Shown one piece after another: positions 7,827 to 23,202 of a stretch of 24,330 nucleotides of DNA. Made by a program: the position numbers and the translations under genes. Origin of the DNA: a virus. The notes below the pieces were generated by a model, which was given only the letters and a program-made list of their open reading frames with translations, made no database searches and was not told the DNA's origin. Within the stretch, counting starts at the first letter, position 1. Every line of letters starts with the position of its first letter. The DNA lies in IMG/VR virus record IMGVR_UViG_3300007538_000175, positions 1 to 24,330 of that record; one strand, given 5' to 3'.

Positions 7827-8360
7827 TTGAAGCGTTTTACAGAATTTTTAAATGAAACTACACTGAGTCGAGTTACATCACATTTCAAAAGTGCTAGACC
7901 AGTTGCTATTCTAACTGCTTTTAGAGGCTCCAATACATATGAAGATAACGTTAAACTTAATAAACAATTAGCTTCATCCATTAAAAGTGCGGGTTATGGA
8001 TATGTTTATGTAGATGGTCATTGGGTTGAAAAGGATGGAAATAACATTGATGATACATCAGAAGATTCAATTCTTATTATCGGCAATGAAGTTGATGATG
8101 GTAAGCTGAAGGGTTTAGTTACTAAGTGGATGAAGAAATATGATCAGGATGGTGTGCTATTTAAAGCAGAAGGTGAAGGTCAAGAAATGACTATCCTTTA
8201 TAGTGATGGAAGGGTTGAAACAATTGGTAAGTTCTCACCAAACAAAATTGCTCAGGCATATACAAAACTAAGAGGTAGGGGTAAAAGAAGTTTTGTTTTT
8301 GAAGGATATAGAGAAACACCTAATTGGATTGGACAAATGAGTAGGAATGTAACTAATTAA
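7827..8360 (+). CDS. DUF3293-like protein
   Basis: The 177-residue protein starts at TTG 7827, 5 bases after AAAAAAGGAAA; no upstream ATG exists in frame. The N-terminus MKRFTEFLNE is a common opening in T4-like phage proteins. Residues 26-60 (VAILTAFRG...N...LA..IKSAGYGYVYVDGHWVE) and the later VLFKAEG resemble DUF3293 proteins, which share the pattern I-T-A-F ... N ... L ... G ... G-x-W-x-E. The family has no established function. Inverted repeats lie on both sides of the gene (7653-7742 and 8363-8438). Confidence 0.65.
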   Translation: MKRFTEFLNETTLSRVTSHFKSARPVAILTAFRGSNTYEDNVKLNKQLASSIKSAGYGYVYVDGHWVEKDGNNIDDTSEDSILIIGNEVDDGKLKGLVTKWMKKYDQDGVLFKAEGEGQEMTILYSDGRVETIGKFSPNKIAQAYTKLRGRGKRSFVFEGYRETPNWIGQMSRNVTN

Positions 8361-8362
8361 AT

Positions 8363-8438
8363 TCAAGAATATATCAAAGTCAAAACTTGACCGTAAATCA
8401 TGTAGAATCGCAATCTTATGTAATTGATATATTCTTGA
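8363..8438 (+). repeat. 14-bp perfect inverted repeat, possible terminator
   Basis: TCAAGAATATATCA (8363-8376) and TGATATATTCTTGA (8425-8438) are exact complements. The interior contains a further hairpin GTCAA/TTGAC. Six T residues follow at 8442-8447, so it could end the upstream transcript although the loop is long. The tmRNA promoter starts immediately after. Confidence 0.65.
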
Positions 8439-8448
8439 CTCTTTTTTG

Positions 8449-8479
8449 TTGACATATGTTATCCTTTTCTATATAAATA
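8449..8479 (+). promoter_or_regulatory. promoter of the tmRNA gene
   Basis: TTGACA (8449-8454), 17 bases, then TATAAA (8472-8477), a near-consensus sigma70 promoter. The -10 region is also an exact TATAAATA late octamer, so both polymerase forms might use it. A start about seven bases downstream would coincide with the beginning of the tmRNA acceptor piece. Confidence 0.8.
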
Positions 8480-8482
8480 ATA

Positions 8483-8765
8483 ATGAAGCTGCTTGATGTA
8501 GCGGTAATATCTGGCAAGACGTGGCTTCGATGCCACCGCCTCCACCAAATTAATAGAGTCAATATATGGGGGCGAAAGGATTCGATTGGTAGAAAAAAAC
8601 GTTATTAGGTTTCCGGTATGATACCCGCCGAAATGGTTCAAAAACGTAAATGCAAAATTTACACCAAGTAATGATAATTTTTCTGAAATGGCTATTGCCG
8701 CTTAAGTGAAGTAAATCATTCGGGGTATGAGTTCCACCTTGTTAACCAACGGACTCATTTCTTCT
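8483..8765 (+). ncRNA. ssrA: circularly permuted (two-piece) tmRNA
   Basis: The tmRNA halves are in reversed order, as in alphaproteobacterial two-piece tmRNA. The acceptor piece (about 8483-8547) comes first. It ends with T arm GTGGC-TTCGAT-GCCAC, 3' strand CGCCTCC (8537-8543), A8544 and CCA (8545-8547). After a 20-base spacer the coding piece begins with GGGGGCG (8568-8574), which pairs over seven positions with the acceptor strand (one G-U), followed by the conserved D-loop region GGATTCGAT. The tag frame is at 8652-8705. A downstream stem ATGAGT/ACTCAT (about 8727-8756) probably belongs to the pseudoknot region. Ends are approximate. tmRNA rescues stalled ribosomes and tags the product for proteolysis, helped by host SmpB. 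The T-loop has six bases instead of seven. Confidence 0.88.
8652..8705 (+). CDS. tmRNA tag peptide reading frame
   Basis: From the GCA resume codon the frame reads AKFTPSNDNFSEMAIAA and stops at TAA 8703-8705. The end AIAA is like the ALAA/AVAA degron recognised by ClpXP, and NDNF with the two-small-residue ending is like alphaproteobacterial tags. The resume codon is inferred from GTAAAT before GCA. A later resume point would shorten the tag. Confidence 0.82.
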   Translation, partial: AKFTPSNDNFSEMAIAA

Positions 8766-8793
8766 TTTCCAAAATAATTTTGCATAATATATG

Positions 8794-8820
8794 TTTACTT
8801 TCTATAAATAATAATATAAT
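8794..8820 (+). promoter_or_regulatory. promoter before the Pro/Ser tRNA cluster
   Basis: TTTACT (8794-8799), 15 bases and TATAAT (8815-8820). A TATAAATA octamer (8803-8810) lies inside, so the region may be read by both the early and the late polymerase. Spacing of 15 is short. Confidence 0.5.
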
Positions 8821-8823
8821 ATG

Positions 8824-8885
8824 GCTCTAGCAGCCTGATCGGAGTTCGAGGGGGACTTGGCAACAGAATCCCTTCACTTATAGCA
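8824..8885 (+). other. tRNA-like RNA lacking a T arm
   Basis: GCTCTAG (8824-8830) pairs with TTATAGC (8878-8884) with one mismatch, and it ends one base before tRNA-Pro. The 47-base interior has a G-rich hairpin (about 8849-8874) but no T arm. It shares GGACTTGG with the tRNA-Pro anticodon region. It may be a rearranged piece of tRNA-Pro. Confidence 0.35.
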
Positions 8886-8886
8886 A

Positions 8887-8960
8887 CAGGGAGTGTTGAA
8901 ATGGTATCTTACCGGACTTGGACTCTGGTGTCGAGGGTTCGATTCCCTCCTTCCTGACCA
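8887..8960 (+). tRNA. tRNA-Pro (UGG)
   Basis: The acceptor is CAGGGAG with CTTCCTG (one G-U). The anticodon stem CCGGA/TCTGG has loop CTTGGAC, anticodon TGG. The T stem GAGGG/CCCTC is perfect and CCA is encoded at 8958-8960. Confidence 0.92.
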
Positions 8961-8967
8961 ATTTAAA

Positions 8968-9054
8968 GGAAAGTGATTCCATCCGGGGATGGACTCTGTT
9001 TTGAAAACAGATGGGACCGCAAGGTTTGGGGTTCAACTCCTCCGCTTTCCGCCA
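8968..9054 (+). tRNA. tRNA-Ser (UGA)
   Basis: The acceptor is GGAAAGT with GCTTTCC plus one G-U. The anticodon loop TTTGAAA contains TGA. A normal class II variable arm (near 9012-9027) is present. The discriminator is G9051, as expected for Ser, and CCA is encoded at 9052-9054. Confidence 0.93.
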
Positions 9055-10368: not shown

Positions 10369-12294
10369 ATAATTATCCATTGGAGTATGTTGTGGAGTGG
10401 TTCTTGCTACTCCACGACCTGATGCTACTCCACCAGATTTAGAATTATTATAACTATCTTTTACACTTTTATCTATTATTACAGGTGCACCATTAAATCT
10501 ATTTGTCATAGCAGATGATTCCCTTTCTGTTAATTCTTTCGTTTGTTTGAGCCGACCAGTTTTTGCTACTGTTACTGTTTGGAAAACTGGACCAGTAGTT
10601 GGTGGTGATGCATTAGCTTCAGGTGATGGTGTTATTCTATCTTCTTCTTTTTTTTCAAATAAATCTTTAACCCAATTTACAGCCCTATTATCTGTTGCTA
10701 AACCTACCATATAGCCTTTCATATCCTCCCATGTTGGGATCATTTCTATAATCATATCCACAAAGTCATTAAAGGCATCTTTAATAGTTTTCACTACGTC
10801 TATCTCTTCCATCCATTTCTTTGTATCGGCAACCATAGTATTGAATTTAGTTTTAACACCTTCAACAAAATTATCAAAATAGGTTTGAATAGTTTTAATT
10901 ACGTCTATCTCTTCTATCCATTTCTTTGTATCGGCAACCATAGTATTGTATCTAGTTTTAACACCTTCAACAAAATTATCAAAATAGGTTTGAAGTGTTT
11001 TCATCACGTCTATCTCTTCTATCCATTTCTTTGTATCGGCAACCATAGTATTGTATCTAGTTTTAACACCTTCAACAAAATCACTAACATATTTTTTCAT
11101 AGAGGCAGCTATTTCATCTTTTTTAATCACTAACCATTCATAAGCTGATGCGGCCTTTGCAAATAGAGCCTTTGCTTCCTTAGACCATTTAATTGAACCT
11201 TTAAAATCAGCCCATAAATCTGAAAAGAGTAGTACTAAATTATCTCCATATTCTACTAAACTTTTAGATTCTTTTAATTTTTTCCAACTAGCTTTTGATT
11301 TTTCAAAATCTGGCTCCCAATCCAACATATATGCAGCTGCAGCTGCAGCTGCAGCAACAGCCGCTGTGATGGCAATTACAGTTAAACTAAATGGATTCAA
11401 AATCAATGGTATTAACGCTAATCCTCTTAATAACCCGCTTATTGGTTTAATTGCGAGCATTAATTTACCTAACCATTTAATTGCTGGTATAATTAGTTTC
11501 GTGGATTTAATCACTGCTTTTGAGCTTGTGATTATTTTCTTAAAATTATTACCTATAGACCCAATAATTTTCTTAAATCCCAACCATAAACCCATAAATT
11601 TTATAATATCACCTGTCATATCACCCGGCAAAATTTTCCATATTCCTTTTAAAGCACCTACACCCAAACCCTTTATTTTTTTTAATTTGGAATTTTTAGA
11701 TGTAATTTCAACCTTACCTTTTTTATTTTTTGGTTTTTTATCATCAACATTACGTCTTAGTAATGAAGTTTTAAGTGACTCATTAAACTCACCTAGAGAT
11801 TTATTCATGTTCATTTGACTAATATTTGCCGCCTTATTACTATCATATAAATCTGATATCTTCGTTGCTATAATATTAATAGGTTCAATTATTAAACTAA
11901 ACTCATCTTTCAGGTTTTTAATACCCTTTAATACATTCAATTGAGTTTTTTCTTTGGATATATTTGGTTTGATATCTATAATCTTAACATCATTTTCAAC
12001 ATTTTCTATAGGTTCTTTGACCGATACATTAGTTACTCTTGGTTTACTTTTTGTAGTTGAAATAGGAGTTATTTCAGTAGACTTTACTGTTTTTTCTTTT
12101 TTTGTTTCTTTTACTAATTTAACAAACTCTTTTTTATTATCAATATCCACATCAATAGATTTATCTACTTTTGAGATTAATCTATCAAGTTTTTCACTTT
12201 CTCTTAATGCTTTTCTAGCATCTCTGGCAGCATTTTTCTTGTCTAGTTTTTCTCTAGCAAGTACCTCTGATACTGTAGGATTGTCATTACTCAT
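10339..12294 (-). CDS. large repeat-containing probable virion protein
   Basis: The 651-residue protein opens with a charged helical region (residues 1-110). A Lys-rich middle is followed by a hydrophobic block (about 265-325) with Gly/Ala/Ile-rich helices and a run of alanines, then MLDWEPDFEKS. Residues about 400-510 hold three copies of a 35-residue helical unit (FVEGVKTRYNTMVADTKKW). The C-terminus is Pro/Ser/Gly-rich and disordered. Hydrophobic helices plus coiled repeats recall tape-measure or other tail-associated virion proteins, but I cannot name the family. The start overlaps the stop of the membrane protein gene by one base. A minus-strand TATAAATA upstream fits late expression. 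Confidence 0.8.
   Translation of the reverse strand: MSNDNPTVSEVLAREKLDKKNAARDARKALRESEKLDRLISKVDKSIDVDIDNKKEFVKLVKETKKEKTVKSTEITPISTTKSKPRVTNVSVKEPIENVENDVKIIDIKPNISKEKTQLNVLKGIKNLKDEFSLIIEPINIIATKISDLYDSNKAANISQMNMNKSLGEFNESLKTSLLRRNVDDKKPKNKKGKVEITSKNSKLKKIKGLGVGALKGIWKILPGDMTGDIIKFMGLWLGFKKIIGSIGNNFKKIITSSKAVIKSTKLIIPAIKWLGKLMLAIKPISGLLRGLALIPLILNPFSLTVIAITAAVAAAAAAAAYMLDWEPDFEKSKASWKKLKESKSLVEYGDNLVLLFSDLWADFKGSIKWSKEAKALFAKAASAYEWLVIKKDEIAASMKKYVSDFVEGVKTRYNTMVADTKKWIEEIDVMKTLQTYFDNFVEGVKTRYNTMVADTKKWIEEIDVIKTIQTYFDNFVEGVKTKFNTMVADTKKWMEEIDVVKTIKDAFNDFVDMIIEMIPTWEDMKGYMVGLATDNRAVNWVKDLFEKKEEDRITPSPEANASPPTTGPVFQTVTVAKTGRLKQTKELTERESSAMTNRFNGAPVIIDKSVKDSYNNSKSGGVASGRGVARTTPQHTPMDNYLYGIVRYAQ
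10796..11082 (-). repeat. three 105-bp in-frame repeats
   Basis: The unit beginning ACGTCTATCTCTTC (plus strand) recurs at 10796, 10901 and 11006, an exact 105-base period, and encodes three 35-residue repeats in the virion-like protein. The copies are almost identical in DNA, which suggests recent duplication and possible length variation between strains. Confidence 0.85.
11333..11355 (-). repeat. GCAGCT microsatellite encoding poly-Ala
   Basis: GCAGCT is repeated almost four times and encodes the alanine run before the residues YMLDWEP in the minus-strand protein. It is prone to slippage in steps of two alanines. Confidence 0.75.
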
Positions 12295-16376: not shown

Positions 16377-17017
16377 TTACATACAAAAAAATAGTGTCAT
16401 TATTAGAATTAAATAAACCTAAAGAAATTGGTATGTTTAAGGATAGAGTTAGTAAATTTGACACGGTTGATTCACGTAACACTGATTGGCAGGGTGAAGC
16501 TAATGACTTATTTGGTAAGTTTGGTTTTAAATCATTTGGACGTGGTAAATATGCTACAGTTTTCGGTAATCCTAGATATCCATATGTCATTAAATTATTC
16601 ATGAAAGATACTGCATATCTTAAATATTTGAATTGGGTTATTAGAAATCAATCAAATAAATATGTACCTAAAATAAAAGGTAAAGTTATAAAAATTAATG
16701 ATATTTTTATGGCTGTTAGGCTTGAGAAATTGAATAATAGTTCTCGTGCATCTGATGAGTTTATTGAGATGTGTAGAGCACCAGATGATTTTCTTGAAGG
16801 TTATTCCGACTTTAATTCTATACCAAATAATGATAAAGATGCTATTGATTTGTGTGAATTTTTATCAGCAAATGAAAGGTTGATTGATGTTCATGGTGAT
16901 AATGTCATGGAAAGAAATAATAAACCAGTGTTGATTGATCCATTGTATAATTGGTTTAAAGGTGGTAGATTTACTATGGACCCTAATGATATATCCAATT
17001 TTAAGGATATTTTTTGA
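16373..17017 (+). CDS. kinase-fold protein
   Basis: The 214-residue protein has the marks of a small protein-kinase or aminoglycoside-phosphotransferase fold. These are a glycine-rich loop GRGKYATVFG (residues 56-65), the lysine in YVIKLF (K74), a hinge-like segment FMAVRLEKL (112-120), the catalytic-loop motif IDVHGDN (171-177) and VLIDP (186-190) as the second metal-binding aspartate. The catalytic residues look intact, so activity is plausible. The target is unknown and could be a host protein or a small molecule. It lies between a conserved phage protein and the Acb1-like gene, overlapping both. This suggests an accessory host-takeover or counter-defence segment. Confidence 0.75.
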   Translation: MITYKKIVSLLELNKPKEIGMFKDRVSKFDTVDSRNTDWQGEANDLFGKFGFKSFGRGKYATVFGNPRYPYVIKLFMKDTAYLKYLNWVIRNQSNKYVPKIKGKVIKINDIFMAVRLEKLNNSSRASDEFIEMCRAPDDFLEGYSDFNSIPNNDKDAIDLCEFLSANERLIDVHGDNVMERNNKPVLIDPLYNWFKGGRFTMDPNDISNFKDIF

Positions 17018-17490
17018 AGACCTTTAAAGAATATTTATCAAAATTTAATAGAAAATTTGTTGGGATTACTTTTACAAGTGAGAGCCAAAAGCTATTAACT
17101 GAATATGCTAAATCAAATGGGTTTGATTTATCTGAAAACTACAATAATGAACCAATAAAAACATTTGAGTTTCACACAACTATTTTCTATACTACATCTG
17201 AACACAACATAACAAATGGAGTATTTACATTAGAACCATTTGAAGTATCCTTTGATTCATTTGGTTTGCTTGGTAAAGAAAACAACATACCAGTGATAAA
17301 ATTAAATGTAACAAATCTTGTAAAAATTCGTAACAGGTTTGAAAATTTGGGTATGAAGGATGAGTGGCCTGCATTTGTTCCACATATCACTCTATCATAT
17401 AATTGGGATGGGACACCAAAAATCAAGGATTTAGAATTACCAAAATTTAAAATTATTGCTGAAAAAATAACAATTGAGGATCAGACATGA
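17014..17490 (+). CDS. 2H phosphoesterase, Acb1-like anti-CBASS candidate
   Basis: The start is TTG 17014, overlapping the previous stop (TTGA) and preceded by AAGGAT. The N-terminus MKTFKEYLSK is typical for T4-like proteins. The 158-residue product has the two H-x-T motifs of the 2H phosphoesterase fold, FHTTIFYT (H54, T56) and PHITLSYN (H124, T126), 70 residues apart. Size and spacing closely match T4 gp57B, the Acb1 enzyme, which cleaves cyclic di- and trinucleotides and so silences CBASS immunity. That it is Acb1 itself is inference. A ligT-like RNA 2',3'-cyclic phosphodiesterase is the alternative. Confidence 0.78.
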   Translation: MKTFKEYLSKFNRKFVGITFTSESQKLLTEYAKSNGFDLSENYNNEPIKTFEFHTTIFYTTSEHNITNGVFTLEPFEVSFDSFGLLGKENNIPVIKLNVTNLVKIRNRFENLGMKDEWPAFVPHITLSYNWDGTPKIKDLELPKFKIIAEKITIEDQT

Positions 17491-19227: not shown

Positions 19228-22200
19228 ATGAACTCACAAGTAGATAGTCGTGCCATGATGTCAAATGCTAAATTTTTTGACGGTTATTCAAGATGGTCTG
19301 AAACAACAAATAAATACGAAACATGGGATGAATCTGTATCACGTGTAATGGACATGCATAGAGGTTATTACTCTGATAAAATGTCAACAGAATTAGAAGA
19401 AGCTATTCAGACTGCTGAAGATGGGTACAAAGAAAAATATGCATTGGGTGCTCAAAGAGCATTACAATTTGGTGGTGATCAGCTACTTAAGAATCCGATG
19501 CGCTTATACAATTGTTTCGCACAAGAAACTAAATTCATCACCTCTTTAGGTATTAAATCATTTAAGGATTTTGATGATGGTGATGAAATATCTGTATTAT
19601 CACATAAAGGAGTGTGGAAAAATGCTACTGTTAAATCATATGGTAAAAATACATTAAATAAAATAACTTTAAGTAAAAAAAGTTCTATTAAAACTGTTTA
19701 TGCTACAGATAATCATACATGGATTTTAAAAAACGGTGATAGAACAGATGAATTATCAGTTGGTGACGTACTTTTAGAAGTACCTGAAATTTTACAAGAA
19801 TTTGATTTTGATGATGCTAATTTTTTAGAGCGTCTTTATTGGTGTTATGGATATGTTTATGGTGATGGTGTTGTAAATAATAATCATTCTAATGTTCGTT
19901 TATGTGGTAAAGATAATCAATATGAGTATAGATTTTTAGAGATGGGATTTAAATCATCATCTAGTGCATCCTTGTATGGTGATATTATTTGTTATACGGG
20001 TAAATATAAAAAAACACTACCAAACCCTGAAAAAGATTCACCAGAATTAATAAGAGCATTTGTTCGTGGTTATCTAGATGCAGATGGTGAAAAGAAAGAA
20101 AGTCGTTTTAATCATAATTCTTTTGTTGGTATACAGGCATCAAATAAAAAAGCCGTTGATTTTATTCGTAGATGTTTTAGTGTTGCTGGTTCATATACTA
20201 TAAGTGAAAGGGATGTTTCATTTACAAAAACTAATTATGGTGAATATGCTGATGGTACTACTAGATTTAGATTATTTGATTCATCCTCACAAAAAACTAG
20301 ATGGCATGTTAGAAATATTGAAAAAACTAACAGATTTGAAACCGTGTGGTGTTTAGAAGTTGAAGACGATAAATCATTTATTTTGGATGGTGGAATTGTC
20401 ACTGGAAATTGCACATCCACATATTTAGACAGGTCTGAAGCTTTTGGTGAAATATTTCATACTCTTTTATGTTTGGCACCTGAAACCATGGTTAAAATTA
20501 AATCAGGTGATAAAATGATAAAGGATATTGAAGTTGGTGATGAAGTTTTATCATATAATGAAACCACAAAAAAATATGAGTATAAACATGTTTACAACAC
20601 AATAGAAAATGCAACAGAAGATAAGGAAAAAATTGAGTTAGAGTTGGAGAATGGTGCGACCATTCGATGTACTGTTGATCATAAATTTTTAACTTCTAAT
20701 AGAGGTTGGGTAGAAGCACAACACCTTTCCGAAGATGATGATATAGTTAATTATCACGAAATGCATGAAATGAAAATAACAAAAAAAACTATAATAAAAG
20801 ATGAGAGAAAATATTGGGATATTTCTGTTGAAGATAACCATAATTTTATTTTAGAAGATGGAACTGTTGCACATAATTGTGGAGCGGGTGTAGGATTTTC
20901 AGTACAGAAACATCATATTAAGAAACTACCTAAAATCGCTAATCGAACAAAGATGGCAAAGGTTTATGTAGTTGAAGATAGCATTGAAGGTTGGGCATCA
21001 TCATTAGACGTTTTAATGTCCTCTTTTTTTGTTGGTGGTGGTAAACATCCAGAGTATGAAGGTAGACGTGTTTATTTTGATTTATCAAATATCAGACCAA
21101 AGGGTAGTTTCATTTCAGGTGGATTTAAAGCTCCGGGACCAGAACCACTAAGAAGAGCCTTGGATAAAATTGAATATCTACTCCAAGGTTTAATTTTGAG
21201 TGGAAAAGATAAACTTAAAACAATTGATGCATATGATATTGTAATGCATTCAGCTGATGCTGTTTTAGCTGGTGGTGTTAGGCGTTCTGCTACAATTTGT
21301 CTCTTCTCATTAGATGATGATGATATGATAAATGCAAAAACAGGTGATTGGTATAACACAAACCCACAAAGAGCAAGAAGTAATAATTCAGTTGTGTTAT
21401 TGCGTAGCACAATCACATTTGAAATATTTCAATCTGTTATGCAGAAAACAAAAGAATTTGGTGAACCGGGTTTCTATTTTGTCGATCACTTAGACTTTCT
21501 TTGTAACCCATGTTTTACAGGTGATACTATGGTAGCGGTGGCTGATGGTAGAAATGCAGTTTCTATTAAAGAGTTGGCTATGGAAAATAAACCATTTCCA
21601 GTGTACTCTGCTCATATTGGAAATAAAAGAAAGTGGGTTACAGATGTAAAAACTGCTATTGCTTTTAAAACGGGTACACGTAAAACCATCAAAATTACAT
21701 TAAGTGATAATACAACATTTCGTTGTACACCAGAACATAAATTAATGTTACCAGATGGTTCATATGTGGTTGCAAAAGATTCTATGTCATTAGAATTAGA
21801 AGGGTTTTTTACTCATAAATCAAAAAATTATAGAGTAATTAATAGTTTTACAAATGGTCATAATAAACAACATAGATTGATTTGGGAATATTATAATGGT
21901 GATATACCAAAAGGTTCTGTTATCGACCATGTTGTATCTAATACACCAGATTTTATTGATAATTTACAAATGCTTAATAAGAGTGATCATGATAGAAAGA
22001 CTGGTGAAGAAGTTTCAGGTTCCAACAATGCAGTATTTAAAATTGAAGATACAACAAAATGGAAAAATAACCTTTCAAATAAAGCATTTCTACATGGTAA
22101 TCCTAATTTTAATGGAATTACAAATGAAGAATTGATAAAAAATGCGAAATTGCTTTATGATTTAGGTGAAAAAATTACATTTGAAAATCTCAAAATGCTT

Positions 22201-23202
22201 GATTCTAGAACACCACAATCGTTTTCTAAAAATAGATTTGGTGGAAAATTAAGAAATCTTATAGCAATTGCAACAGATACAGTAGATTATGTAGAACCTG
22301 AAAATGTAGAATATATTGAAGATGTTGTGGATGGGTATGAATATAAAAATCCAACTGTAATTAAAATTGAAGATGATGTTGAAGAGGATGTTTATGATCT
22401 TAAAGTAGAGGATAATTCAAATTTTTATATTCTTACTAAGGGTGATGAAACTTATAAAAATTCAACTGGTATTTTAGTGCATAATTGTGTAGAAATTGGT
22501 ATGTGGCCGCAACTTGATGGTGTGTCTGGTTTTCAAGGTTGCAATCTAAGTGAAATCAATGGTGGTAAATGTACAACTGAAGAGAAATTTTATCATGCCT
22601 GTAGGGTTGGTGCAATTCTTGGAACATTGCAGGCTGGTTATACAGACTTCAAATTTCTATCAGATGTGAGCAAAAAAATATTTGAACGGGAATCTCTTAT
22701 TGGTGTTTCAATTACTGGTTGGATGAATAACCCTAAAATTCTATTCAATGCTGACATATTGAAAAAAGGTGCTGAAATTGTAAAAGAAGTGAACCGTGAA
22801 GTTGCTACACTCATAGGTATTAATCCTGCAGCAAGGACAACTTGTGCGAAACCATCTGGAAATGCATGCACAACATTTGACACATTAATTAAAACAGAAA
22901 ATGGTGTTATGTCTCTTAAAGATATATTTGGATTTTGTACCAATGATGAAATAGATATATCAACAGATAATATTGAAGCTGGTACAGCGTTTCAAGTTAC
23001 TAATAATCTAAAGGTGTATGATGAATATAATCAACTTAAAGATGTTACTGGATTATATTTGAATGGTATGGCTAGAATATATGAGGTTGAATTTGAAGAT
23101 GGTAAAATATATAAATTTACTGATAATCATAAGTTGAAAACTGAAAATGGTTGGAAAAAGGTGAGCGATTTAACAGAAAAGGATGTTATTATTAGCTTTT
23201 AA
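19228..23202 (+). CDS. nrdJ: class II ribonucleotide reductase NrdJ, N-terminal part with four inteins
   Basis: The 1324-residue ORF encodes the first part of an adenosylcobalamin-dependent ribonucleoside-triphosphate reductase (monomeric RTPR type), which makes dNTPs for phage DNA synthesis. Extein pieces are residues 1-95 (FDGYSRWSETTNKYETW), 395-414 (CTSTYLDRSEAFGEIF), 551-761 (CGAGVGFSVQKHH, later GGVRRSATICL) and 1087-1213 (CVEIGMWPQL, ending AKPSGNA). After splicing the thiyl-radical motif N-P-C-V-E is formed. Intein 1 is residues 96-394, intein 2 is 415-550, intein 3 is 762-1086, and the N-half of intein 4 is 1214-1324. The ORF ends inside that intein. The rest of the enzyme is encoded after the GIY-YIG gene. 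Confidence 0.95.
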   Translation: MNSQVDSRAMMSNAKFFDGYSRWSETTNKYETWDESVSRVMDMHRGYYSDKMSTELEEAIQTAEDGYKEKYALGAQRALQFGGDQLLKNPMRLYNCFAQETKFITSLGIKSFKDFDDGDEISVLSHKGVWKNATVKSYGKNTLNKITLSKKSSIKTVYATDNHTWILKNGDRTDELSVGDVLLEVPEILQEFDFDDANFLERLYWCYGYVYGDGVVNNNHSNVRLCGKDNQYEYRFLEMGFKSSSSASLYGDIICYTGKYKKTLPNPEKDSPELIRAFVRGYLDADGEKKESRFNHNSFVGIQASNKKAVDFIRRCFSVAGSYTISERDVSFTKTNYGEYADGTTRFRLFDSSSQKTRWHVRNIEKTNRFETVWCLEVEDDKSFILDGGIVTGNCTSTYLDRSEAFGEIFHTLLCLAPETMVKIKSGDKMIKDIEVGDEVLSYNETTKKYEYKHVYNTIENATEDKEKIELELENGATIRCTVDHKFLTSNRGWVEAQHLSEDDDIVNYHEMHEMKITKKTIIKDERKYWDISVEDNHNFILEDGTVAHNCGAGVGFSVQKHHIKKLPKIANRTKMAKVYVVEDSIEGWASSLDVLMSSFFVGGGKHPEYEGRRVYFDLSNIRPKGSFISGGFKAPGPEPLRRALDKIEYLLQGLILSGKDKLKTIDAYDIVMHSADAVLAGGVRRSATICLFSLDDDDMINAKTGDWYNTNPQRARSNNSVVLLRSTITFEIFQSVMQKTKEFGEPGFYFVDHLDFLCNPCFTGDTMVAVADGRNAVSIKELAMENKPFPVYSAHIGNKRKWVTDVKTAIAFKTGTRKTIKITLSDNTTFRCTPEHKLMLPDGSYVVAKDSMSLELEGFFTHKSKNYRVINSFTNGHNKQHRLIWEYYNGDIPKGSVIDHVVSNTPDFIDNLQMLNKSDHDRKTGEEVSGSNNAVFKIEDTTKWKNNLSNKAFLHGNPNFNGITNEELIKNAKLLYDLGEKITFENLKMLDSRTPQSFSKNRFGGKLRNLIAIATDTVDYVEPENVEYIEDVVDGYEYKNPTVIKIEDDVEEDVYDLKVEDNSNFYILTKGDETYKNSTGILVHNCVEIGMWPQLDGVSGFQGCNLSEINGGKCTTEEKFYHACRVGAILGTLQAGYTDFKFLSDVSKKIFERESLIGVSITGWMNNPKILFNADILKKGAEIVKEVNREVATLIGINPAARTTCAKPSGNACTTFDTLIKTENGVMSLKDIFGFCTNDEIDISTDNIEAGTAFQVTNNLKVYDEYNQLKDVTGLYLNGMARIYEVEFEDGKIYKFTDNHKLKTENGWKKVSDLTEKDVIISF
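19513..20409 (+). mobile_element. intein 1 of NrdJ, LAGLIDADG type
   Basis: The 299-residue intein begins with Cys in CFAQETKF, has the block B motif TDNHTWIL, and ends with ILDGGIVTGN before Cys. WCYGYVYGDG and FVRGYLDADGE are the two LAGLIDADG helices of a homing endonuclease, with an acidic residue in each. It is inserted after RLYN, next to the conserved redox cysteine of the reductase. The penultimate residue is Gly instead of the usual His, and block F has DDKSF where a His is common, so splicing may use a variant mechanism. Confidence 0.92.
20470..20877 (+). mobile_element. intein 2 of NrdJ, mini-intein
   Basis: The 136-residue intein begins CLAPETMVKIKSGDKM, has block B CTVDHKFL, block F ISVEDNHNFILEDG and ends VAHN before Cys. 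No endonuclease domain is present. It retains all canonical splicing residues and follows only 20 extein residues after intein 1. Confidence 0.93.
21511..22485 (+). mobile_element. intein 3 of NrdJ, HNH type
   Basis: The 325-residue intein begins CFTGDTMVAV, has block B CTPEHKLML, and ends STGILVHN before Cys. The middle contains HRLIWEYYNGDIPKGSVIDH and, after it, IDNLQMLNKSDHDR, an HNH nuclease signature. Block F (LKVEDNSNFYIL) has Asn in place of His and carries an extra loop. The insertion lies directly before the cysteine of N-P-C-V-E, the thiyl-radical residue. Confidence 0.92.
22867..23202 (+). mobile_element. N-terminal half of split intein 4
   Basis: After AKPSGNA the frame enters CTTFDTLIKTENGVM (block A) and continues through FTDNHKLKT (block B) to VSDLTEKDVIISF and a stop, 111 residues. 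This is a complete N-intein without the C-terminal blocks. The matching C-half is at 24191. Extein continuity (S-G-N-A joined to S-V-L-L-E-S-A-S-G) supports trans-splicing. Confidence 0.92.

Follow-up and report, generated by a model that had tools for sequence, protein, structure and literature searches.

The window analysed here, a complete virus record from IMG/VR (24,330 bases), very probably carries a functional phage gene that encodes a two-piece tmRNA like that of alphaproteobacteria. tmRNA is the RNA that frees stuck ribosomes. The anatomy of the gene, its family membership, its base pairings and the two 3′ tails that follow its tag are laid out below as observed, and from these we infer how the RNA would be processed, charged, used for tagging and timed, and where the second tail came from. 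An earlier note on the same DNA had proposed a phage-encoded, circularly permuted tmRNA at positions 8483–8765 and had suggested a search with the alphaproteobacterial covariance model, with a score below threshold counting against the idea. This proposal is borne out: that model (RF01849, alpha_tmRNA) matches 8431–8759 with 64.8 bits, above its cut-off of 50, and RF04321 (tmRNA_permuted) matches 8485–8705 with 95.5 bits (E 1.1e-17 in a scan of the 24-kb record; cut-off 47) over model positions 1–213, that is, over its full length, with no non-standard pair among those it models. By these two family models, which exclude chance, and not by plain folding, 8485–8758 is confirmed as a circularly permuted (two-piece) tmRNA gene of alphaproteobacterial type; minimum-energy folding of the precursor (z −0.9) speaks neither for nor against it. 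RF04321 covers the tRNA-like domain and the tag only, with the 3′ tail lying outside the model. The interval originally put forward does hold the tmRNA gene, but it ends before a second tag end and a second tail at 8821–8875.

The individual parts named in the earlier note, namely the T arm, CGCCTCC, ACCA, GGGGGCG, GGATTCGAT and the tag frame, were each recovered in place from the sequence and the alignments, and the 20-base spacer is present as well (Table 1). The acceptor 3′ strand lies 5′ of its partner strand, and the seven pairs said to join the two halves all form (7/7, GGGGGCG with CGCCTCC). The third of them is a G-U pair (G8570-T8541), the alanine identity pair G3-U70; a G-U at the third acceptor pair is the signal read by alanyl-tRNA synthetase. 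The T loop comprises six bases, where seven are usual. ARAGORN, when run on the window, did not report the tmRNA gene.

Table 1. Features of the tmRNA locus and its surroundings in the window (position 1 is the first base of the record).
Feature	Position	Strand	Basis or remark
Promoter: TTGACA (8449–8454), 17 bases, TATAAA (8472–8477)	8449–8479	+	sequence reading
Acceptor piece (5′ pairing strand, T arm, acceptor 3′ strand, ACCA)	8485–8547	+	RF04321
T arm, GTGGC-TTCGAT-GCCAC	8521–8536	+	sequence reading
Acceptor 3′ strand, CGCCTCC	8537–8543	+	sequence and alignment
Encoded ACCA	8544–8547	+	sequence reading
20-base spacer	8548–8567	+	between ACCA and acceptor 5′ strand in the RF04321 alignment; presumably removed
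Coding piece (acceptor 5′ strand, GGATTCGAT, helix region, tag, linker to tail)	8568–8721	+	RF04321 and RF01849 alignments
Acceptor 5′ strand, GGGGGCG	8568–8574	+	sequence and alignment
GGATTCGAT	8578–8586	+	sequence and alignment
Tag frame, AKFTPSNDNFSEMAIAA-stop	8652–8705	+	resume codon GCA at 8652 placed by RF04321/RF01849 alignment; TAA ends at 8705
Tail 1, phage-type 3′ pseudoknot	8722–8758	+	end of RF01849 match
Second TATAAATA	8803–8810	+	10 bases 5′ of second tag end
Second tag end, ATGGCTCTAGCAGCCTGA (MALAA-stop)	8821–8838	+	lacks a resume codon and an acceptor
Tail 2, canonical alpha-type 3′ pseudoknot	8841–8875	+	model R1
tRNA-Pro	8887–8960	+	directly 3′ of tail 2; ARAGORN, Rfam tRNA

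Which tag would this RNA encode? The frame gives 17 residues, A-KFTPS-NDNFSEMAIAA, in which KFTPS is a five-codon insertion after the first codon relative to the usual ANDN... form. For comparison, a heuristic parser, which failed at 26 loci, yielded 109 distinct tags from other viral tmRNA loci: most of these are 9–14 residues long and start with ANDN or similar, and their ends include ALAA (71), RLAA (15), AIAA (8) and AMAA (8). The AIAA end of the window tag, shared with those eight, is a small-residue C-terminus of the usual degradation type. Of the two roles that the earlier note had offered, keeping trans-translation working or changing the tag during infection, the former appears to fit better, as the insertion alters the tag but the degradation-type end is retained. 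Viral tmRNA tags of 22–29 residues, far above the usual length, are found at L053, L040, L299 and L333 (for example, AKKSTTFASILPVKVERVSLVQEALAASA).

The near-consensus promoter reported at the acceptor piece is indeed there, with TTGACA and TATAAA separated by 17 bases. Overlapping the TATAAA is TATAAATA (8472–8479), a motif of T4-late type, which we take to be the T4 late promoter core. The window contains 12 copies of it against 6.4 expected (12 were reached in 4 of 100 shuffles), 11 of the 12 are on the gene-rich strand, and about eight, read by eye, stand less than 35 bases 5′ of a gene or RNA. The start predicted from this motif, at about 8485, coincides with the first base of the RF04321 match. 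Together, the copy number, the strand bias and the placement before genes and RNAs make it plausible that the tmRNA is expressed late in infection, as far as a short motif can tell.

Judged by its gene content, the contig is that of a T4-like phage: it encodes a T4-type DNA primase (phrog_47/PHROG 47, E 3e-62; 40–42% to Synechococcus and Rhizobium phages), a CCA-adding enzyme whose closest counterparts are in the Sinorhizobium phages phiN3 and phiM12 (43% identity), about 20 tRNA genes (17 by ARAGORN and three more by Rfam), a GIY-YIG homing endonuclease and a class II ribonucleotide reductase (19228–23202) that carries several intein segments as well as an HNH domain. Its host is likely alphaproteobacterial. 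No close relative was found among phages by DNA, nor among viral contigs via the CCA-adding enzyme or the ORF upstream of the tmRNA. No integrase was recognised in the window, and no SmpB gene is present in the 24-kb record or in the phages RHph_I1_18, Phosso and BL57. The same record encodes a protein matching Pfam Acb1, an anti-CBASS protein (17014–17490; 40.5 bits, cut-off 27), and the ORF directly 5′ of the tmRNA (7827–8360) gives a match to PF23780, a family of S-adenosylmethionine lyases (47.5 bits, cut-off 28).

Behind the tag, tail 1 folds as an H-type pseudoknot with the stems S1 (GGGGT/ACCT) and S2 (ATGAGT/ACTCAT), followed by the T-rich TTCTTCTTTT, and its loop reads TTGTTAACCAACGG where the bacterial tail has GGCAACAGAA. 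Both of these stems form, but our pseudoknot model R1 (see below) barely recognises the tail, at only 8.1 bits (E 0.5). Tail 1 is homologous to the bacterial tmRNA tail, from which it has diverged. Tails of its type (GGTATGAGTTCCACCT...AACGG) stand 3′ of the tag in about 30 viral tmRNAs or contigs; Sinorhizobium phage Phosso has one in which S2 is changed on both sides, GGG/CCC for GAG/CTC, and thus in a compensatory manner. The pattern gave no match in genome_contigs, which holds one genome per species for 84,980 prokaryote species, and, as far as this exact pattern can show, tails of the tail-1 type appear restricted to phages.

About 80 bases separate tail 1 from tail 2, and this gap contains a promoter motif and the second tag end. 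Tail 2 reads GGAGT-TCGAGGGGG-ACTT-GGCAACAGAA-TCCCTTC (S1 GGAGT/ACTT, S2 GAGGGGG/TCCCTTC) and, with two crossing stems and the exact GGCAACAGAA loop, agrees with the tail definition of alpha_tmRNA. The 3′ end of that family model aligns to 8761–8878 at 36 bits (E 9.6e-9), R1 matches 8832–8877 at 33.5 bits (E 7.4e-9), and the roughly 60 bases at the second tag end and tail 2 share 88–90% identity with viral tmRNA 3′ ends (for example, at L200). Two versions of the tail occur in the window, one phage-type (tail 1) and one canonical (tail 2).

This arrangement is not peculiar to the window: a tmRNA with its tail, and then a second tail, also occurs at L175, L148, L154, L219, L254, L149, L102, L136 and L041. 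At L175, L148, L154 and L219, a 70-residue ORF lies between the tails and a residual tag end precedes the second one; in the L175 group, the tag end kept there is CTAGCGGCTTGA. At L154, the acceptor piece of the phage tmRNA is split by a GIY-YIG homing endonuclease gene (Pfam; 10493–11044, minus strand), beyond which a new acceptor (CATCTCCACCA / GGGGATG) restores the pairing. Given the recurring second tails and this split, phage tmRNA genes are sites of repeated insertion and 3′-end replacement. The inter-tail ORFs of about 70 residues form a family (MSTPYDLRFNLIHFARDQL...FVDNK; L175 3056–3268, also L148, L149, L254 and L102), the tested members of which had no PHROG or INPHARED match; the idea that this small ORF is present in the window, too, was rejected, as it was not found there. 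L041 and L136 instead have an ORF for a hydrophobic peptide of 23–26 residues (MKFYDFGVTLMIVAILGFVGFKVFGG) between the tmRNA tail and the second tail.

Where does tail 2 come from? Most likely, tail 2 and the MALAA-stop preceding it would represent the displaced 3′ end of an earlier version of the tmRNA, left in place once a new 3′ end had been acquired. This is reminiscent of genomic islands (Islander, PMC4383910), at whose ends a displaced 3′ fragment of tmRNA is left over behind a regenerated gene. The order of regenerated gene and leftover fragment is alike; unlike the cases outlined there, however, the window has neither an island nor an integrase between the two ends, merely the short gap with its promoter motif. 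Tail 2 might alternatively be an attachment-site or integration scar: a mobile element would have targeted the tmRNA 3′ end, restored an intact gene and left behind the part it displaced, in the manner of genomic islands (PMC4383910). A displaced tag end with its tail is the signature of such events, and the acceptor piece at L154, split by an endonuclease gene and replaced beyond it, points in the same direction. We nevertheless consider this unlikely, as no integrase was recognised in the window, the tails are only about 80 bases apart and the insert at other loci is a single small gene. Slightly less likely again, in our view, is that tail 2 has been retained as a working end-forming element, on a transcript possibly initiated near 8816 and extending into tRNA-Pro. 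Its pseudoknot is intact according to the R1 score, it has its own TATAAATA, and conserved free-standing tails occur in other phages (see below), but the MALAA codons indicate a tmRNA origin, and tail 2 sits before a tRNA, whereas free-standing tails follow the stop codons of genes.

How might the tmRNA itself operate? Transcription would begin at about 8485, where the acceptor piece starts or immediately 5′ of it, and probably in the late phase of infection. Host tRNA-processing enzymes would cut after ACCA (8547) and before GGGGGCG (8568), with the loss of the spacer in between, and the resulting two pieces would be held together by the seven-pair acceptor stem and a long helix. Charged by the host alanyl-tRNA synthetase via G3-U70, the tmRNA could then enter stalled ribosomes together with SmpB, which would have to come from the host because the record has no gene for it. 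Translation would resume at GCA 8652 and add AKFTPSNDNFSEMAIAA, a peptide ending like other degradation tags, so that during infection ribosomes would be freed and broken proteins marked for disposal. Tail 1 would set the 3′ end of the coding piece.

Several features argue for such a working gene: both family models score over their cut-offs; all seven acceptor pairs, G3-U70 among them, the ACCA and an open tag with a degradation-type end are in place; the promoter and the predicted start agree with where the model match begins; the phage context is rich in translation functions (about 20 tRNAs, CCA-adding enzyme); and two-piece tmRNAs recur in viral contigs and in cultured alphaproteobacterial phages, as do the second tails in viral loci. 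On the other side of the ledger are the lack of an own SmpB, the six-base T loop, the tag insertion and the divergence of the tail 1 loop from that of bacteria. The latter three, along with the broken second 3′ end, could also befit a decaying passenger, that is, a once-captured host tmRNA gene whose function is now fading, with tail 2 as further debris. This would be very improbable for a locus in which every pair modelled by RF04321 is standard, the frame is open up to its AIAA end and a near-consensus promoter is present, and whose phage-type tail is conserved in about 30 viral contigs, with a compensatory change in Phosso. We give hardly any weight to the notion of a phage RNA that competes with or alters the host tmRNA, for which there is a phage precedent in the tag-less tmRNA of mycobacteriophage DS6A, reported to interfere with that of its host (PMC11915505), and to which the deviant form of the window tag might lend itself, since, unlike in DS6A, a tag frame with the usual degradation-type end is present.

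As a candidate working tmRNA gene, the locus is in company. The earlier note regarded permuted tmRNA as rarely discussed for phages; its occurrence there is established: 402 phages with tmRNA genes have been described, representing 133 distinct tmRNAs, of which 53 are two-piece, 50 of these from marine or aquatic samples (PMC9004378), and 79 phage tmRNAs are listed in the source of RF04321 (PMC11915505). The window gene joins this already published kind, the phage two-piece tmRNA, and adds one more divergent case to the known set. With the alphaproteobacterial two-piece tmRNA (RF01849, Caulobacter type), it shares the gene order, the G3-U70 acceptor, the encoded CCA, the tag and the 3′ pseudoknot, and it differs in the six-base T loop, the KFTPS insertion, the TTGTTAACCAACGG loop, the second tail and its location in a phage genome. 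Methylophage Melnitz and its relatives (PMC9004378) are likewise T4-like aquatic phages with no reported integrase, and their permuted ssrA is complete and of alphaproteobacterial type; the Melnitz gene, however, is described with an early promoter and, at its 3′ domain, a predicted glutamine riboswitch, whereas the window has a late-type promoter motif. A glutamine riboswitch at the window tail was considered and rejected, as there was no Rfam glnA match in the window, nor in 8300–9000 at E up to 0.1. The published tmRNA_permuted family (RF04321, PMC11915505) is matched over its full length, and the unusual features of the window's tails fall outside that model.

Two-piece tmRNAs recur in many viral contigs and have matches in cultured phages, namely Rhizobium phage RHph_I1_18 (60 bits), Sinorhizobium phage Phosso, Caulobacter phage BL57 and the Rhodobacter phages RcSimone-Hastad (L474 901–1188) and RcRudolph (L475 900–1188). 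The annotated records of Phosso, BL57, RcSimone-Hastad and RcRudolph have no RNA feature at the tmRNA, and the RcRudolph annotation has a hypothetical protein gene spanning it. Standard annotation thus misses such genes, both in the window (ARAGORN) and in these four cultured-phage records, and current counts of phage trans-translation genes are therefore probably too low. BL57 additionally encodes a GOLLD RNA (L287 1097–1583, minus strand; 169.7 bits) near tRNAs and its permuted tmRNA.

Pseudoknots of the tail type are also found apart from tmRNA genes. Across 463 loci, we counted 356 tails: 241 attached to a recognisable tmRNA, 17 second tails and 98 others. Dropping duplicates and tails that lay too close to the end of a contig reduced the 98 to 63 distinct ones, part of which turned out on inspection to be tmRNAs missed by the acceptor test, and about 30 free-standing tails were curated, with selection by eye. 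These lie directly 3′ of the stop codons of unrelated phage genes (for example, L126 7425–7471, L470 8059–8105, L468 575–621, L162 2873–2919 and L419 2444–2492). A box, TGANTAAGANTC, often stands just 5′ of the pseudoknot, and terminator-like hairpins, read by eye, follow some of the tails on the 3′ side (L399, L446, L419).

The structural evidence for this element is strong. At the middle S1 pair, in loci fetched without constraint at this position and with tmRNA tails included, G-C occurs 50 times, A-T 35 times and a mixed combination never. Among 26 distinct candidates, the longest S2 stem averages 5.42 pairs, compared to 3.54 when the 3′ sides are exchanged (best of 1000 shuffles, 4.19). 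In ten free-standing tails of equal register, chosen for alignability, 98% of cells pair and each of the six S2 pairs varies in both strands; their covariation score was reached by 0 of 500 shuffles, and slid structures give 25–46% pairing. Model R1, although built solely from ten free-standing elements, recovers tmRNA tails, not only tail 2 of the window but also the tail at L136 (62.6 bits).

Could the free-standing tails simply be leftovers of broken tmRNAs? For most copies, we reject this: 11 of the 15 records tested, including records of 90 and 160 kb, have no RF04321 match, bearing in mind that records may be fragments and that two of the 11 (L122 and L145) are outside the curated set. 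Position counters it as well, since 25 of the 30 tails lie at −10 to +40 bases from the end of an open frame of at least 60 codons, compared to 12% of random sites; on the opposite strand, 6 of 30 do so.

The simplest reading would be a 3′-UTR element shared with tmRNA, which, as to its function, may protect RNA 3′ ends. More broadly, and tentatively, the tmRNA 3′ pseudoknot could be a portable phage RNA element, placed without a tmRNA after unrelated stop codons, where it would probably block 3′-to-5′ decay or mark the RNA end, and defining the end of the coding piece where it is part of a tmRNA. If one covarying pseudoknot does form the end of tmRNAs and of ordinary phage mRNAs alike, this would provide a direct and testable explanation of how two-piece tmRNAs acquire and protect their 3′ end, and the tail would constitute a new stabilising element of phage mRNAs. 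The free-standing tails have no Rfam family of their own, only sub-threshold alpha_tmRNA matches at 22–40 bits, and we found no description of them in the open-licence literature. The exact pattern of the box was matched 15 times in viral sequences and once in a Patescibacteria assembly.
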